64,000 nt of DNA from Opitutales bacterium (lineage in GTDB: Bacteria > Verrucomicrobiota > Verrucomicrobiia > Opitutales > Oceanipulchritudinaceae): contig JAFIGH010000001.1 in assembly GCA_020831525.1 (NCBI GenBank), forward strand, positions 117,191-181,190. The letters are read 5' to 3'. Below the pieces are notes generated by a model. It did not search any database. It saw nothing but the letters and a program-made list of their open reading frames with translations, and was not told where the DNA came from. The first letter of the stretch is position 1. Each line of letters starts with the position of its first letter. Of the stretch, positions 56,525 through 63,413 are shown piece by piece. The translations under genes and the position numbers were made by a program.

Positions 56525-56725
56525 TCGGCGGTTCAAGGCAAGCGTTGGTCGATGCCGCTATGGGAGTCGTTCACGCCTGCGGTGGCAAGGATGCAAATCG
56601 TCCGTTCGGGTGACTTTCTCACTTGATCTATCGAAATAGGTTATGTACCGTCATCGCAGGATTAGATATATTTATTTGCGTTGACGCCCCGGCAACCCCG
56701 GCCGCGGGCCAACCTGAAACCTGAA

Positions 56726-57244
56726 ATGAACGCCGCACCGCTCCCGCCGCTTGAGGAAATGGACCCCGCCCTGACGGAAGAGATTGGTCAATGCCTGGAC
56801 CAATGGAAGGACAAGGAGGGGAACCTCATCATGATGCTCCATGAGATTCAGGACCGCCACGGCTTTGTGCCGCGCGAGGCGAGCCTGCTGCTCGCGGAGG
56901 CGACGGGGGTTCCCATGGCGCGGATCTACGAGGTGCTCACGTTTTACCACTATTTCAAGCTGGTTCCGCCGGGGAAGCACAACGTCACCGTCTGCAACGG
57001 CACGGCATGCTACCTCAAGGGCGCAGGGCGGCTTCTCGCCGAACTGGAGACCCGGCTCGGTATCCGCGACGGAGATACGACGGAAGACCGCCTCTTTCAC
57101 CTCGAAACAGTGCGTTGCATCGGCTGTTGCGGCATGGCGCCCGCGATGGTCGTCGACCACAAGACCCTTGGCAAGCTTAGCCCGACCGATATGGCCGGGA
57201 TCCTCGAGGGCATTCGCAAACGGGAGGCGGAAAATGATCAATAG
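56726..57244 (+). CDS. hydC: NADH-dependent bifurcating hydrogenase subunit (NuoE/HydC-like)
   Basis: 172 residues from the ATG at 56726. NuoE fold with a four-helix start (LIMMLHEIQDRHGFVPREAS, then LLAEATGVPMARIYEVLTFYHYF) and a thioredoxin-like [2Fe-2S] domain with the cysteine pattern CNGTACYLKG ... CIGCCGMAPAMVV (C-x4-C ... C-x3-C). It transfers electrons within an NAD-linked complex. It overlaps the NuoF-like gene by 11 bp and begins the hydC-hydB-hydA order found in electron-bifurcating [FeFe]-hydrogenases that couple NADH and ferredoxin to H2. Confidence 0.9.
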   Translation: MNAAPLPPLEEMDPALTEEIGQCLDQWKDKEGNLIMMLHEIQDRHGFVPREASLLLAEATGVPMARIYEVLTFYHYFKLVPPGKHNVTVCNGTACYLKGAGRLLAELETRLGIRDGDTTEDRLFHLETVRCIGCCGMAPAMVVDHKTLGKLSPTDMAGILEGIRKREAENDQ

Positions 57245-59204
57245 GCGTGTGAAGGAAGAATTTGAACGGATGCTCGGAAGCGTTGGGGAGGGTCCCTCCG
57301 CGAGCTGGGTCCGTGTTGGTCTGGATACAGGCGGAATCGCCGCCGGAGCGGACCGGCTCTTCGCGCAGTTGCGTGGAGAGTGCGCGAAAGCGGGTTTGGA
57401 TACCGCCGTGCTGCGCGCCGGCTCCTACGGCTATGCATGGATGGATCCGCTCGTCGAAGTGCGGGGCGAAGACGGTGTGCCCGCGCTTTACGGTACCGTG
57501 GATGAAGCGGTTGCCGCGCGTATCATCAACGAGCACCTCGCGGGGGGACGATTGGTTGACGGACACGTCATCGCCCCGCGTCGGCGCGGATCGAGTTTGG
57601 ACGGACCCGTCACGGCGGTCCTCGTGCAGGACACTTCGTGCGAGGGCGGCGACAAAACCCGCTTTTTCCAAAGTTCCATGGAGGACGAACTCAAAGCGCG
57701 GGGCATGGGCGAAGCCGTGGAGGTAGTGCGCGCGCTCGACATGGGGATCTACCATGAGGGACTGGTCGTCCAGCTCCTGCCGTCCTGCGTGACCTACACC
57801 AACGTCCTCAGCCGCGATATCGTCCGCATTGCCGAGGAGTCCGTTTCAAAGCATGCCGTTCTCAAAGACCTCCTTTGGAAACAGCAGGATTTGCAGGAAC
57901 GCATCGTCCTGCGGCATTGCGGTAGCCTGGACCCCGAAAGCCTCGACGACGCCCTGCGCTGCGGCGTCTATCAGGGACTTGCCGATTCCCTTGCCAAACA
58001 CGGTCCTGAAGGTGTCATCGAGGAAGTGAAGGCGAGCGGTCTGCGCGGTCGTGGCGGGGCCGGTTTCCCCACCGGCGTGAAATGGGAACTGACGAGAAAG
58101 CCCGCGGCGAAAAGGAAGTTTGTCATCTGCAACGCCGACGAGGGCGATCCCGGCGCGTTCATGGACCGGAGCATTCTCGAAGGGGATCCGCACAGCGTGC
58201 TCGAAGGGTTGATCCTTGCGGGCCTTGCGGTCGGGGCCGAAAAGGGATTCTTCTATATCCGCGCGGAATATCCGCTCGCGGTCGCTCGGGTGGAAAAGGC
58301 CATCGCTGCGGCCCGGCGGCGGGGGTTGCTCGGAGAGAATATTCTCGGCTCCGGGTGGAGCTTCGATGCCGAGGTGCGTCTCGGCGCGGGGGCCTTTGTG
58401 TGCGGCGAGGAGACCGCCTTGATCGCATCCATCGAGGGCAAACGGGGAAGCCCTGAACCGCGCCCTCCATATCCCTCCGTGAAGGGTCTCTGGGGCATGC
58501 CCACGTGTATCAACAATGTCGAGACACTCGCCGCTGTGCCGTGGATCATCACAAGCGGCGGCAAGGCCTACGCTTCCCGCGGTATGGAAAAGTCGCGCGG
58601 AACCAAGGTATTCGCTGTCACCGGAAAGGTGCGTAATCCGCAGCTTGTCGAGGTGCCCATGGGGACTACGGTTCACGATATCGTCTACAGCATTTGCGGC
58701 GGCGTGCAGGATGATGTTCCCATAAAGGGGGTCCAGACCGGAGGACCCTCCGGCGGAATCATTCCGGAGAAACTTCTCGAAACGCCGGTCACCTACGAGA
58801 ATCTACAGGCGCTCGGATCGATCATGGGCTCGGGCGGCATGCTCATCATGGATGAGAACGATTGCATGGTCGACGTTGCCGCTTTCTATCTCAAATTCTG
58901 CGTTGACGAATCCTGTGGCAAGTGCGCTCCGTGCCGCGTCGGCGGCTACCAGATGCTTCAGCTTCTGCTCAAAGTTTCACGCGGACGCGGAAACGCGGAG
59001 GATTTGGAGCACATCCGGCGGATCTGCACAGCCATGCAAAAGGCATCGCTCTGCGGCCTCGGCCAGACCGCGCCCAACCCCATTCTTTCCTCTCTGCGCT
59101 ACTTCGAGGACGAATACGTCGCCTACATTGAGGGTGGCACAAGCTACGCGCGGAAACGGAAACGTGCTCTTGCCGAGGGAAAGAGCCTCAAGGAAGCCGT
59201 TTGA
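57234..59204 (+). CDS. hydB: NuoF/HydB-like FMN/NADH subunit with cysteine-poor N-terminal domains
   Basis: 656 residues from the ATG at 57234 (GGGAGG upstream, overlapping hydC's stop). The core is normal: GLRGRGGAGFPTGVKWEL (FMN/NADH), ICNADEGDPGAFMDRSIL, GAGAFVCGEETALIASIEG, GGPSGG and the [4Fe-4S] site SCGKCAPCRVGG with SLCGLGQTAPNPI. The first ~210 residues form two thioredoxin-like ferredoxin domains. Domain 1 (VRVGLDTGGIAAGA..., AGSYGYAWMDPLVEV) has none of the four usual [2Fe-2S] Cys. Domain 2 (QDTSCEGGDKTRF, ALDMGIYHEGLVVQLLP) keeps about one. The C-terminal double [4Fe-4S] ferredoxin of Thermotoga HydB is also missing: the protein ends shortly after DEYVAYIEGG. Confidence 0.9.
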   Translation: MINRRVKEEFERMLGSVGEGPSASWVRVGLDTGGIAAGADRLFAQLRGECAKAGLDTAVLRAGSYGYAWMDPLVEVRGEDGVPALYGTVDEAVAARIINEHLAGGRLVDGHVIAPRRRGSSLDGPVTAVLVQDTSCEGGDKTRFFQSSMEDELKARGMGEAVEVVRALDMGIYHEGLVVQLLPSCVTYTNVLSRDIVRIAEESVSKHAVLKDLLWKQQDLQERIVLRHCGSLDPESLDDALRCGVYQGLADSLAKHGPEGVIEEVKASGLRGRGGAGFPTGVKWELTRKPAAKRKFVICNADEGDPGAFMDRSILEGDPHSVLEGLILAGLAVGAEKGFFYIRAEYPLAVARVEKAIAAARRRGLLGENILGSGWSFDAEVRLGAGAFVCGEETALIASIEGKRGSPEPRPPYPSVKGLWGMPTCINNVETLAAVPWIITSGGKAYASRGMEKSRGTKVFAVTGKVRNPQLVEVPMGTTVHDIVYSICGGVQDDVPIKGVQTGGPSGGIIPEKLLETPVTYENLQALGSIMGSGGMLIMDENDCMVDVAAFYLKFCVDESCGKCAPCRVGGYQMLQLLLKVSRGRGNAEDLEHIRRICTAMQKASLCGLGQTAPNPILSSLRYFEDEYVAYIEGGTSYARKRKRALAEGKSLKEAV

Positions 59205-59217
59205 CCGGAAGGACCAA

Positions 59218-60984
59218 ATGATGATGCCGAAGACCATTGAAGCGACGATTAACGGGATGCCGGTGCGCGTGTCCGCCGGCACTTCGATCCTCGAGGCCGC
59301 GCGGGAGGTGAATGTCCGCATTCCCACCCTGTGCAAACACGACGATCTCCTACCGACCGCCGCTTGCGGCCTCTGCATTGTCAAGGTCGGCGGAAGCCGG
59401 CGCATGCCGCGTGCTTGCGCGACGGAGTTGGAAGAGGGTATGCAGATCGTCACGCACGATCCCGAGTTGACCGACGTCCGCCGCTCCACGCTGGAGCTGA
59501 TCCTCTCCAACCACCCCAACGGATGTCTCACATGCGGGCGGAATCTCAACTGCGAATTGCAAACGCTCGCGGGCGATTTCGGTATCCGCCAAGACTGCAT
59601 CCCGCGGTATGTGCGCGAGCAGGAGCCCGACAATTCAACCGGATCAATCATTCTCGAGTTCACGAAATGTATTAAATGCGGCCGTTGTGTTCAGGTTTGC
59701 CAGCAGATGCAGAATGTATGGGCGCTTTCGTTTCTGCAGCGCGGAATCCATACACGGATGGCTCCGGCGGGAGACATTGGGCTCGGTGAGTCACCCTGCA
59801 TCCGCTGCGGGCAGTGTTCGGCGCATTGTCCCACCGGGGCAATTGTGGAGAACGACGAAACGGTCACCGTTTGGGAAGCACTCCGCGATCCGGAGAAATA
59901 CTGCACGGTCCAGATAGCGCCGTCCGTCCGTGTCGCCTTGGGGGAGGCGTTCGGGTATCCGCCGGGAACGGATCTCACGGGCAAGATCTACGCGGCCATG
60001 CGCCGGCTCGGGTTTAAGGCGGTCTTTGATACGAACTTCGCCGCGGATCTCACGATCATGGAGGAGGCGAGTGAGTTTGTGGAGCGCTTTGTCAACGGAA
60101 AGGGAGATTTGCCGCTTATCACATCGTGCTGCCCTGCATGGGTGGACTACATGGAAAAACGGTTCAGCGATTTTATTCCCAATTTTTCAACGGCAAAATC
60201 CCCGCAGCAGATGCTTGGTGTCCTCGCCAAGACGTACTTCGCGGAAAAACAGGGAATCGATCCGGCGAAGATCTATCAGGTGTCCGTTATGCCTTGCACG
60301 GCCAAGAAGTACGAGCTGGAGCGCACGGAAGAGATGTATGCGAGCGGCTATAAGGATGTCGACGTCGCGCTGACGACGCGGGAGCTGGCGCGGATGATCA
60401 AGCAGTCCGGCCTCGATTTTCGCGGACTCCCGCCTGCGCGGTCCGATTCCATTCTCGGCACATACTCCGGCGCGGGGCTCATCTTCGGCAGTACAGGCGG
60501 TGTCATGGAGGCGGCCCTGCGCACGGCTTACTTCAAAGTGACCGGTCGCAACCTTGAAAAAGAAGCGATCAACATCGAACCGGTCCGGGGACTGAAAGGA
60601 ATCAAAAGTGCCGCCATCGACATTGAGGGCACCGAGGTGCGGGTCGCCGTTGCGCACGGGCTCGGCAATGTCGAGCGCCTCCTGCTGGAGGTCCGCCGTG
60701 CGCGCGAGGCCGGTTCACCTCCGCCGTATCACTTTATCGAGGTAATGGCCTGTCCCGGCGGATGTATCGGCGGCGGCGGGCAGCCCTACGGGGTTTCCGA
60801 CGAACTGCGGCGGCAGAGGATACAGGGGTTGCTCGACGGCGACCGCGGCATGCCACTGCGGTTCTCCCACGAGAACCCCGAAATCCGCACCGTCTACAAC
60901 GAGTTTCTCGGGGAGCCGTTGAGCGAAAAAGCACACCGGCTCCTGCACGCGCACTACAAGGCGCGTCCTGCATACCAGAAGTGA
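59218..60984 (+). CDS. hydA: [FeFe]-hydrogenase catalytic subunit
   Basis: 588 residues; ATG codons at 59218, 59221 and 59224 with GGAAGGA (59207-59213) just upstream, so the precise start is uncertain by two codons. N-terminal plant-type [2Fe-2S] (CKHDDLLPTAACGLC ... RACA), a His-ligated cluster (HPNGCLTCGRNLNC), then two [4Fe-4S] clusters (KCIKCGRCVQVC, PCIRCGQCSAHCPTG). H-cluster motifs are complete: L1 TSCCPAWVDYM (with the second Cys of the proton path), L2 MPCTAKKYEL and L3 EVMACPGGCIGGGGQP. The small-subunit-like C-terminal part follows. It makes or consumes H2, likely as the catalytic subunit of an NADH/ferredoxin bifurcating complex with HydB and HydC. Maturases HydEFG are not in the window. 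Confidence 0.95.
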   Translation: MMMPKTIEATINGMPVRVSAGTSILEAAREVNVRIPTLCKHDDLLPTAACGLCIVKVGGSRRMPRACATELEEGMQIVTHDPELTDVRRSTLELILSNHPNGCLTCGRNLNCELQTLAGDFGIRQDCIPRYVREQEPDNSTGSIILEFTKCIKCGRCVQVCQQMQNVWALSFLQRGIHTRMAPAGDIGLGESPCIRCGQCSAHCPTGAIVENDETVTVWEALRDPEKYCTVQIAPSVRVALGEAFGYPPGTDLTGKIYAAMRRLGFKAVFDTNFAADLTIMEEASEFVERFVNGKGDLPLITSCCPAWVDYMEKRFSDFIPNFSTAKSPQQMLGVLAKTYFAEKQGIDPAKIYQVSVMPCTAKKYELERTEEMYASGYKDVDVALTTRELARMIKQSGLDFRGLPPARSDSILGTYSGAGLIFGSTGGVMEAALRTAYFKVTGRNLEKEAINIEPVRGLKGIKSAAIDIEGTEVRVAVAHGLGNVERLLLEVRRAREAGSPPPYHFIEVMACPGGCIGGGGQPYGVSDELRRQRIQGLLDGDRGMPLRFSHENPEIRTVYNEFLGEPLSEKAHRLLHAHYKARPAYQK

Positions 60985-62312: not shown

Positions 62313-63413
62313 CTATGCGCCTTTGTGCAGCGGGGGCTTGGTGCGGCGGAGGGGCAGTCGTTTCCCGCGGATATCAACCTCCAGCGCGGCGTCTGCCGCC
62401 GCGCTCTCCACAAGGGCCGAACCGATCGGCTTTTGCAGGACGGGGGACTGGGTGCCGGAGAGAACGCGACCGACCTTTTTGCTGTCGGCAAATACGTCCG
62501 CGCCTTCCCGCGCGATGCGCCTGTCGTCGAGGATGAAGTGGATGACCCGGCGCGCCGGGCCGCTTTCTTTCACTTTGGCCAAAGCTTCGCGGCCGACAAA
62601 GTGCGCTTCTTTCTTCAGTTTCACAAAAAAGCCCAGCCCGGCTTCGAGCGGATTGATGTTCGCGCTGATCTCGTGCCCGTAAAGGGGCAGCCCGGCTTCG
62701 AGGCGGAGGCTGTCGCGCGCGCCGAGGCCCGCCGGCTTCAGTCCCTGGCGTTCTCCGCCGGTGAGGAGCATTTTGGCGATATTCGGTGCTTTCGCGGCGG
62801 GCACATAAAACTCGAATCCGTCCTCGCCCGTGTAACCTGTGCGGCTGACTAGGGCCGGCATGCCCGCGATCTGCGCGTCCACGCATCCGAAGCGCCGGAT
62901 GTCGGCCACGGCGTAGTTGAGCAGCGGCTGCAGGATATCCTTGGCCTTGGGCCCTTGCAGCGCGAGGAGCGCGTAATCCCGCGAGCGGTCGAATACGGTG
63001 CAATCAAACCCAACCGCGTGGCCGTAGATCCATTCAAGGTCCTTTTCCGTGTTTGCAGCGTTCAGGCAAACAAGAAAGCGATCCGGCGCGAGGCACGAGA
63101 CGATGACATCGTCGACCACTCCTCCGTCCTCATAGCACATCAGTGCGTAGAGCGCGCGGCCGGGCACAAGCTTGGAAACGTCATTGGTGAGTATGCGGTC
63201 GAGAAATGCCACCGCCTCCGGACCGCGTACTTCCGCTTCACCCATGTGGCTAACGTCAAAAAGGCCCGCCGCTTCTCGTACGGCCCGGTGCTCCTCAAGA
63301 ATCCCCGTATACTGCACCGGCATCGACCAGCCCGCAAACGGCACCATGCGTGCGCCATTCGCTTCGTGAAAGGCATGCAGAGGTGTCTTCAGCAATTCAT
63401 CCATGCCTCTCAT
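62313..63413 (-). CDS. gcvT: Aminomethyltransferase (glycine cleavage T protein)
   Basis: 366 residues, start at 63413 or the in-frame ATG at 63404 ([10 protein letters not shown]). T-protein of the glycine cleavage system: it transfers the methylene group from lipoylated H protein to tetrahydrofolate. Motifs: [20 protein letters not shown] (folate site), [40 protein letters not shown] (RTGYTGEDG signature) and [21 protein letters not shown]. Length is typical. The usual partners gcvH and gcvP are not adjacent here: upstream is a REP transposase and downstream a LacI regulator, so the system is scattered in this genome. Confidence 0.95.

Follow-up and report, generated by a model that had tools for sequence, protein, structure and literature searches.

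A Verrucomicrobia-centred HydABC [FeFe]-hydrogenase family whose HydB keeps tandem thioredoxin-like domains without the usual cluster ligands

In a 64,000-nucleotide stretch of DNA from an Opitutales bacterium (contig JAFIGH010000001.1, positions 117,191 to 181,190; here called the window), a HydABC-type [FeFe]-hydrogenase is encoded by three genes on the + strand, hydC (56726-57244), hydB (57234-59204) and hydA (59218-60984), with an 11-base overlap between hydC and hydB and a 13-base gap between hydB and hydA. The source genome comprises 5.30 Mb in 184 contigs, with a listed completeness of 100%, and it holds a single [FeFe]-hydrogenase domain. The start of hydC was placed at the ATG at 56726 in preference to the TTG at 56681, with which the listed open reading frame (ORF) begins. 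The features of the locus, including the binding regions for flavin mononucleotide (FMN), reduced nicotinamide adenine dinucleotide (NADH) and the [4Fe-4S] cluster B1, are given below with the evidence for each in brackets.

56726..57244, + strand: hydC, thioredoxin-like [2Fe-2S] subunit with all four ligand Cys (Pfam PF01257, E 4.1e-46)
57234..59204, + strand: hydB, FMN/NADH subunit of 656 amino acids (translation; Pfam Complex1_51K, SLBB, NADH_4Fe-4S)
57303..57578, + strand: HydB thioredoxin-like domain 1, about residues 24-115, with no ligand Cys (phmmer to 8oh5_B, 9bov_B and 9n5u_B; secondary structure of the model; family columns)
57324..57350, + strand: domain 1 motif DTGGIAAGA, where ligand Cys of relatives face G33 or G34 (alignments, family columns)
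57420..57449, + strand: domain 1 motif GSYGYAWMDP, GCxGxC in relatives (alignments, family columns)
57585..57878, + strand: HydB thioredoxin-like domain 2, about residues 118-215, with an incomplete ligand set (separate model; Foldseek; NCBIfam NF041612)
57630..57656, + strand: domain 2 motif DTSCEGGDK, holding C136, the single and unconserved ligand-column Cys (family columns)
57735..57761, + strand: domain 2 motif LDMGIYHEG, with ligand columns D169 and Y173 (family columns)
58026..58541, + strand: HydB FMN/NADH-binding domain with bifurcating-type AFM and GAGAF motifs (Pfam PF01512, E 1.7e-45)
58608..58760, + strand: HydB SLBB domain including GGPSG, residues 503-507 (Pfam PF10531, residues 459-509)
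58872..59123, + strand: HydB B1 [4Fe-4S] region, Cys 561, 564, 567 and 607 (Pfam PF10589, E 6.3e-31)
59124..59201, + strand: short HydB tail with Y631 at the position of the B2 His; the B2 Cys pair and the ferredoxin domain are missing (family columns)
59218..60984, + strand: hydA, [FeFe]-hydrogenase large subunit of 588 amino acids with intact P1-P3 motifs (NCBIfam NF040763; motif count)

An earlier note on this DNA had read the N-terminus of HydB as two tandem thioredoxin-like [2Fe-2S]-type domains that have lost their Cys ligands, and this reading was borne out by alignments, models and family columns. The motifs that it quoted, LDTGGIAAGA and AGSYGYAWMDPLVEV in domain 1 and QDTSCEGGDK and ALDMGIYHEG in domain 2, were exact, and so were their coordinates. 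Residues 26-115 aligned to Stn/Nfn-type subunits of solved structure, in their N-terminal domain (domain E 6.9e-6 for 8oh5_B, 1.9e-5 for 9bov_B and 4.2e-5 for 9n5u_B), the cysteines of which sit opposite G33, S64 and A68 of HydB. A. mobile HydB (7t2r_B) aligned more weakly (domain E 0.035), with cysteines opposite G29, G34, S64 and A68. A model of the whole chain, with a predicted local distance difference test score (pLDDT) of 87.7 from 61 rows, contained two beta-alpha-beta-beta-beta-alpha units at about residues 25-103 and 128-205. The predicted fold is that of thioredoxin-like [2Fe-2S] ferredoxins, while their full set of four Cys is not present. When domain 2 was modelled alone (pLDDT 94, 47 rows), its best Foldseek matches were Thermotoga HydB (E 7.1e-5) and an Aquifex thioredoxin-like [2Fe-2S] ferredoxin (TM 0.77, E 2.2e-4), and other thioredoxin folds scored below the [2Fe-2S] ferredoxins. 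The 2Fe-2S ferredoxin family NF041612 of NCBIfam was also matched at residues 148-213 with E 7.9e-5, although its 23 bits fall short of the cut-off of 150, and no Pfam family, PF01257 included, was matched by residues 1-220 up to E 1. Because of the alignments for domain 1 and the Foldseek matches for domain 2, the ferredoxin-like homology of the N-terminus is judged to be real. An N-terminus unrelated to the ferredoxin-like domain was rejected on the same alignments and matches.

A search with HydB residues 1-220 returned 115 proteins, the window's own entry among them, and a search with residues 221-656 matched 7999 of 7999 scored candidates, of which 120 were listed. Proteins named for Opitutus sp. 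ER46 and for an organism with a name beginning 'Synoicih' are among those listed. The combined set of 173 rows includes fragments and two entries for the window's own protein; 163 rows span residues 29-215 and 168 span the C-terminus. P0143, the sole protein with Fer4 domains among the 120 matches listed, was excluded as an outgroup. It is a canonical HydB, omitted from the family counts, and the long repeat within it looks like a fault of assembly. Since the N-terminal part alone finds 115 proteins, the ligand loss is a conserved family trait, far beyond chance. Verrucomicrobia HydB proteins with the same cysteine loss, which the earlier note had proposed to look for, therefore do exist, as a Verrucomicrobia-centred family.

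Among the 163 rows, domain 1 column 29 held Cys in 1, Gly in 91, Ser in 36, Gln in 30 and Asn in 5; column 34 was Gly throughout; column 64 held Ser in 149, Thr in 12, Ala in 1 and Pro in 1; and column 68 held Ser in 92, Ala in 64, Val in 6 and Cys in 1. Cysteine was thus found 1, 0, 0 and 1 times at these four positions. G33 and G34 were both Gly in 114 of 114 gap-free rows. The counts for domain 2 cover columns 136, 169 and 173, the first ligand column there not being placeable with certainty, and showed Cys in 23 rows at column 136, Asp in all 163 at column 169, and Tyr in 160, His in 2 and Phe in 1 at column 173. The N-terminal cysteines of the window HydB are C50, C136 and C185, and a ligand column is hit by C136 only. 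A shift of the ligands to other positions in the domain, which would have spoken against cysteine loss, was rejected, the commonest off-column Cys (column 43) being present in only 36 of 116 rows.

D31, G33, G34, A36, A37, G38, D133, D169 and Y173 were invariant in the 61-row alignment and near-invariant in larger sets. Such invariance at former ligand sites argues for selection rather than decay. It would also fit a new cofactor or metal site built from the conserved Asp, Tyr, Ser and GGIAAG loop, but we regard such a site as very improbable: another cofactor is suggested by none of the Pfam, NCBIfam and Foldseek matches, and Gly/Ala in the loop together with Ser is consistent with a structural substitution for Cys. 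In the A. mobile structure, the N-terminal domain of HydB is described as carrying cluster B5 and stabilising the C-terminal domain of HydC (PMC8880783). Both Cys-free domains of the window family probably serve as a scaffold, most plausibly one that holds the HydC C-terminal domain, and their retention would show a structural N-terminal role separate from electron transfer.

When genome contigs were scanned with the N-terminal profile, 56 loci were found, most of them in Opitutales, Opitutaceae or Opitutae, with some in Akkermansiaceae, Puniceicoccaceae, Kiritimatiellae, other Verrucomicrobia and bins of the Planctomycetes-Verrucomicrobia-Chlamydiae (PVC) group, and three in Spirochaetaceae/Spirochaetales. 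HydC lay upstream in 56/56 loci and HydA downstream in 49/56, the remaining 7 breaking off within HydB. Of 103 sampled genomes from the order, 14 matched the N-terminal profile strongly over its whole length, 13 of these having HydA too, and five further genomes matched its first half only, weakly. A sequencing error or gene decay in a single genome has practically no chance of explaining the cysteine loss, given the same pattern in the 163 rows and the operon order kept by relatives in 56 other genomes; a pseudogene was rejected by the family-wide conservation.

The remainder of HydB was divided into parts that are kept and parts that are gone. As the earlier note had stated, the FMN, NADH and central [4Fe-4S] parts are intact: they were matched by Pfam, and the B1 cysteines 561, 564, 567 and 607 were present in 168 of the 168 C-terminus rows. 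The flavin-site residues A308, M310 and F388 were also found in all 168, and the GGPSG columns in 167-168. The middle residue of the AFM motif is Phe in the window HydB (F309) and Tyr in 34 of 116 rows. The absence of the C-terminal double [4Fe-4S] ferredoxin, which carries clusters B3 and B4, held as well, Fer4 being unmatched in HydB and the B3/B4 cysteines being found in none of 168 rows. Only P0072 (SECGPS) had a Cys past column 631 among these rows, and the window HydB has zero Cys after residue 607.

In addition to what the earlier note had observed, the ligands of cluster B2 are mostly lost. The B2 ligands of A. mobile HydB are given as Cys438, Cys476 or a Thr in its place, His525, Cys531 and Cys536 (PMC8880783), and the alignment placed Cys438, Cys476 and His525 opposite C544, S582 and Y631 of the window HydB. 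Across the 168 rows, column 544 was Cys in 85, Ser in 82 and Asp in 1, column 582 was mainly Ser or Ala with Thr in 18, and column 631 was Tyr in 135, Phe in 32 and His in 1. Judged from these alignments, clusters B2, B3, B4 and B5 all lack a complete ligand set, and the FMN, NADH and B1 sites are kept. The four cysteines of HydC (columns 105, 110, 146 and 150, numbered from the TTG) were Cys in 57 of 57 rows.

Because B2-B5 lack complete ligand sets while the FMN, NADH and B1 sites stay, the window HydABC is likely to be an NADH-linked, ferredoxin-independent [FeFe]-hydrogenase. Electrons would move in either direction along NADH, the FMN of HydB, the B1 [4Fe-4S] cluster, the N-terminal clusters of HydA, the H-cluster and H2, and the HydC [2Fe-2S] would lie to the side of this path. 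The proposed ferredoxin path of bifurcating enzymes runs through C1-B2-B3-B4 (PMC11406978), a route of which the window family lacks the B2-B4 part, besides B5. The S. wolfei enzyme, which is without B3/B4, is reported to produce H2 from NADH free of ferredoxin (PMC11406978, PMC7311640). HydA passed the NCBIfam model NF040763, named NADH-dependent [FeFe] hydrogenase, group A6, with 780 bits against a cut-off of 765.

Several points weigh against a ferredoxin-independent enzyme of this kind. The group A6 name is a database label only, and C544, a B2 ligand, is kept in 85/168 rows. Three flavin-site motifs are described as telling bifurcating from non-bifurcating enzymes (PMC8880783), and Losey et al. 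2020 sorted out non-bifurcating enzymes by flavin-site residues (PMC7311640). With A, M, F and GGPSG in its pocket, the window HydB would count as bifurcating by the latter test. None of HydE, HydF and HydG was found above cut-off in the own genome, which casts doubt on any hydrogenase activity and is considered below. The flavin-residue test and the cluster-inventory test thus disagree here, and more weight was given to the missing path.

The earlier note had also suggested that the enzyme may go on bifurcating through a shortened relay. While its two Cys-less domains, absent C-terminal ferredoxin and intact core all stood, this part of its interpretation did not, B2-B5 being without one full ligand set when together they are described as unique to bifurcating enzymes (PMC8880783). 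Residual bifurcation is unlikely, and it keeps a place in our estimate because the flavin pocket retains most of the bifurcating-type residues. An altered relay made of FMN and the HydC [2Fe-2S], with HydA or a separate protein as the docking site of ferredoxin, would make use of this conserved pocket (167-168 of 168 rows) and of the HydC cluster cysteines, and the homologous cluster A1 of StnA is reported as essential for Stn bifurcation (PMC10482914). We nevertheless consider such a relay improbable, since besides the incomplete B2-B5 ligands, HydA aligned full length with T. kivui HydA1 and had no extra domain, and flank clustering of ORFs of at least 120 amino acids, from which a smaller one could escape, gave no conserved ferredoxin gene. 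A hidden ferredoxin gene in the operon found no support in that clustering, for which the ORFs were picked greedily and included some shadow ORFs.

The enzyme probably descends from a bifurcating one that would have lost its ferredoxin arm, because its flavin motifs are kept and its HydB core is 59% identical to the ferredoxin-bearing paralogue in its own genome; identity to two other matches there was 41% and 38%, the second with an internal stop. The paralogue is part of a second HydC-like/HydB pair on contig C157 (L075:4509-10820), with N-terminal Cys and C-terminal Fer4 domains in its HydB. The own genome thus holds one ferredoxin-armed HydB relative and one without the arm. The neighbours of the second pair encode an 829-amino-acid protein that combines Fer2, molybdopterin and DHODB-type parts, as well as a GltD-like flavoprotein, an arrangement that resembles the Stn/Nfn type, judged by domains. 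The tail of its HydB is without the linker Cys pair that P0143 has.

The family was then compared with known systems. What defines Bfu enzymes (HydABC of T. maritima, T. kivui and A. woodii, NiFe-HydABCSL of A. mobile, and Stn) is a conserved BfuBC core that carries six FeS clusters, and BfuB has five of these (PMC9304861). The window family has the FMN/NADH domain with SLBB and B1, a BfuC with [2Fe-2S] cluster C1, and the flavin-site AFM, F and GGPSG; B5, B2 and B3/B4 are without complete ligand sets, so that of the five BfuB clusters only B1 is fully liganded. Bfu subunits are described with one thioredoxin-like B5 domain, whereas the window family has two. The nearest published case of ferredoxin-cluster loss is sub-type II BfuABC of Hydrogenedentota and its relatives in Acidobacteriota, Actinomycetota and Planctomycetota, likewise group A [FeFe] HydABC enzymes with a BfuB without B3, B4 and B5 (PMC11406978), and a figure legend of that paper ascribes their absent bifurcation to missing B3B4. 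According to the description there, the B5 and B3B4 binding domains of sub-type II are missing, whereas the Verrucomicrobia-centred family retains two Cys-free thioredoxin-like domains. BfuB of Hydrogenedentota sub-type III has two B5-type domains, as here (PMC11406978), but is described with double B5 clusters, while in the window family both domains lack the usual ligands and B3/B4 have been lost.

S. wolfei Hyd1ABC is likewise without B3/B4 and has an NADH-linked HydA (PMC11406978). The window family shares with the S. wolfei type the absence of B2-B5, in that no complete ligand set was found, and differs from it in the flavin site, which in the S. wolfei type has T/S, K/S/A and Y and no GGPSG, in contrast to A308, M310, F388 and GGPSG here. 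Loss of B3, B4 and B5 has been published for sub-type II and its relatives; neither Cys-free tandem domains nor missing Verrucomicrobiota maturases were found in the open full-text literature searched, with subscription papers and supplements outside it. Another locus, L079:4299-9203, encodes a HydB of 1039 amino acids, a fusion with DPD_II and FAD/NAD(P) domains, and resembles published sub-type I (PMC11406978). Its HydA has a P1 that reads TSCSPGW, and strict P3 was unmatched.

This family splits two published tests for bifurcation, the flavin-site residues pointing to a bifurcating enzyme and the cluster inventory to a non-bifurcating one. It forms a natural deletion series and could reveal what it takes for FMN to bifurcate. 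If annotated from sequence by their flavin-site residues, such enzymes would be mislabelled as ferredoxin-coupled, which alters the H2 metabolism predicted for Verrucomicrobiota, Kiritimatiellota and some Spirochaetota.

To turn to HydA, 47 near-complete rows were compared, namely those of 46 of the 56 loci and the window, after the 10 loci where HydA is partial or missing had been dropped. The P1-P3 H-cluster motifs were intact in 47/47, and columns C304, Q330, M358, K363 and M510, which going by CpI we take to adjoin the diiron site, were invariant in all of them. The window enzyme thus has the motifs of a group A [FeFe]-hydrogenase, and its own genome lacks the maturases HydE, HydF and HydG that belong with that group: no match above cut-off was found there for HydG (TIGR03955), HydF (TIGR03918) or HydE (TIGR03956). 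HydG was above cut-off in 0 of 30 and 1 of 26 genomes of the related loci (1/56 in total), and in 0 of the 103 order-sample genomes, own included. The HydE search covered the own genome and the order sample (0/103), and the HydF search the own genome and 50 of the 56 locus genomes (1/50). The two genome sets overlap, with identical places in both lists. HydA was present in 20 of the 103 order genomes; of these 20, four scored just 152-163 bits, their genomes being about 1 Mb in size, and one is in fragments.

Weaker HydG matches occurred in 10/30, 12/26 (the positive included) and 56/103 genomes, those below cut-off reaching at most 219 bits where 312 are required. HydE matches below cut-off were seen in 66/103 genomes with at most 76 bits, and HydF matches in 50/50 genomes, those below cut-off having at most 90 bits. 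The sub-cut-off HydG matches were inspected for the own genome only, where the weak match was rejected as a true HydG: it looks ThiH-like and lies beside a ThiG-like gene (names by eye). Exactly one of the 14 control genomes in each run was above cut-off, presumably Thermotoga maritima, the only control with HydA.

The single positive genome is that of locus L042/L076 (G047), where the genes after hydCBA are, in order, hydE, a short ORF, hydG, one for an aspartate ammonia-lyase, and hydF (L076:6222-14569). Ammonia-lyases have been tied to H-cluster ligand synthesis (PMC11736057). In the HydA tree, which had a midpoint root and long-branch outgroups, L042 branched from within the other sequences, its support being modest (92/78), and therefore several losses or one gain of the maturases are both possible. 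The HydA of two Spirochaetaceae loci, L049 and L050, fell inside the Kiritimatiellae/PVC branch, which suggests gene transfer.

These results bear on two further explanations. HydABC might no longer be a hydrogenase, its H-domain holding only the [4Fe-4S] and serving another NADH-linked redox or sensing task. The scarcity of HydG, HydE and HydF in the genomes searched would agree with this, and PMC4967309 offers a precedent, in which R. rubrum [FeFe]-hydrogenases were judged inactive or different for lack of maturases. The intact P1-P3 motifs and invariant HydA columns argue against it, as does the family member L042/L076 directly upstream of hydE, hydG and hydF, and we hold this explanation to be doubtful. 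Tentatively, the enzyme could instead be an [FeFe]-hydrogenase with an intact H-cluster that works without HydE/F/G of its own, the diiron part coming by a new route or by salvage from neighbours, so that an NADH-only enzyme would have outsourced its cofactor assembly. Eukaryotes such as Entamoeba are said in PMC4967309 to have lost at least one maturase. With the maturases missing, the old question of H-cluster formation without HydEFG becomes testable in bacteria.

The genes downstream were examined in the 36 family loci that extend 3 kb or more past HydA, with gene families assigned by Pfam and one example each. Same-strand transporter genes starting within 3 kb after HydA were found in 28 of these loci: a TonB-type receptor and EamA were each seen in 22, the two together in 20, and a Na+/solute symporter (SSF) in 4. 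Examples are L012:12797-15918 and L048:12681-14108, and such genes also come after the second HydA in L079:9225-12001. The remaining 8 loci, L042 included, had no transporter neighbours. The transporter genes sit near the place where L042 has hydE-hydG-aspA-hydF, and it is a speculation drawn from this neighbourhood that they import a cofactor or precursor. They are not a simple replacement of the maturases, because genomes without transporter neighbours, that of L042 apart, are also without HydG. No riboswitch hinting at a transporter substrate was found in 8 loci, and relatives of the four transporter seed kinds gave no tblastn match at E 1e-3 in the 64-kb window. A conserved flank gene as a new maturase was rejected, none being recognised and TonB receptor, EamA and SSF genes being found instead.

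In the window (3 kb checked) and in its nearest relative, L006 (1.3 kb available), a LacI-like gene (by eye) on the opposite strand takes the place of the transporters. A glycine cleavage system protein is described as feeding H-cluster assembly (PMC12752695). A GcvT-like gene (by eye) was seen near hydA in the window (62313-63413, - strand), and also after hydA in the Spirochaetaceae loci L049 and L050.

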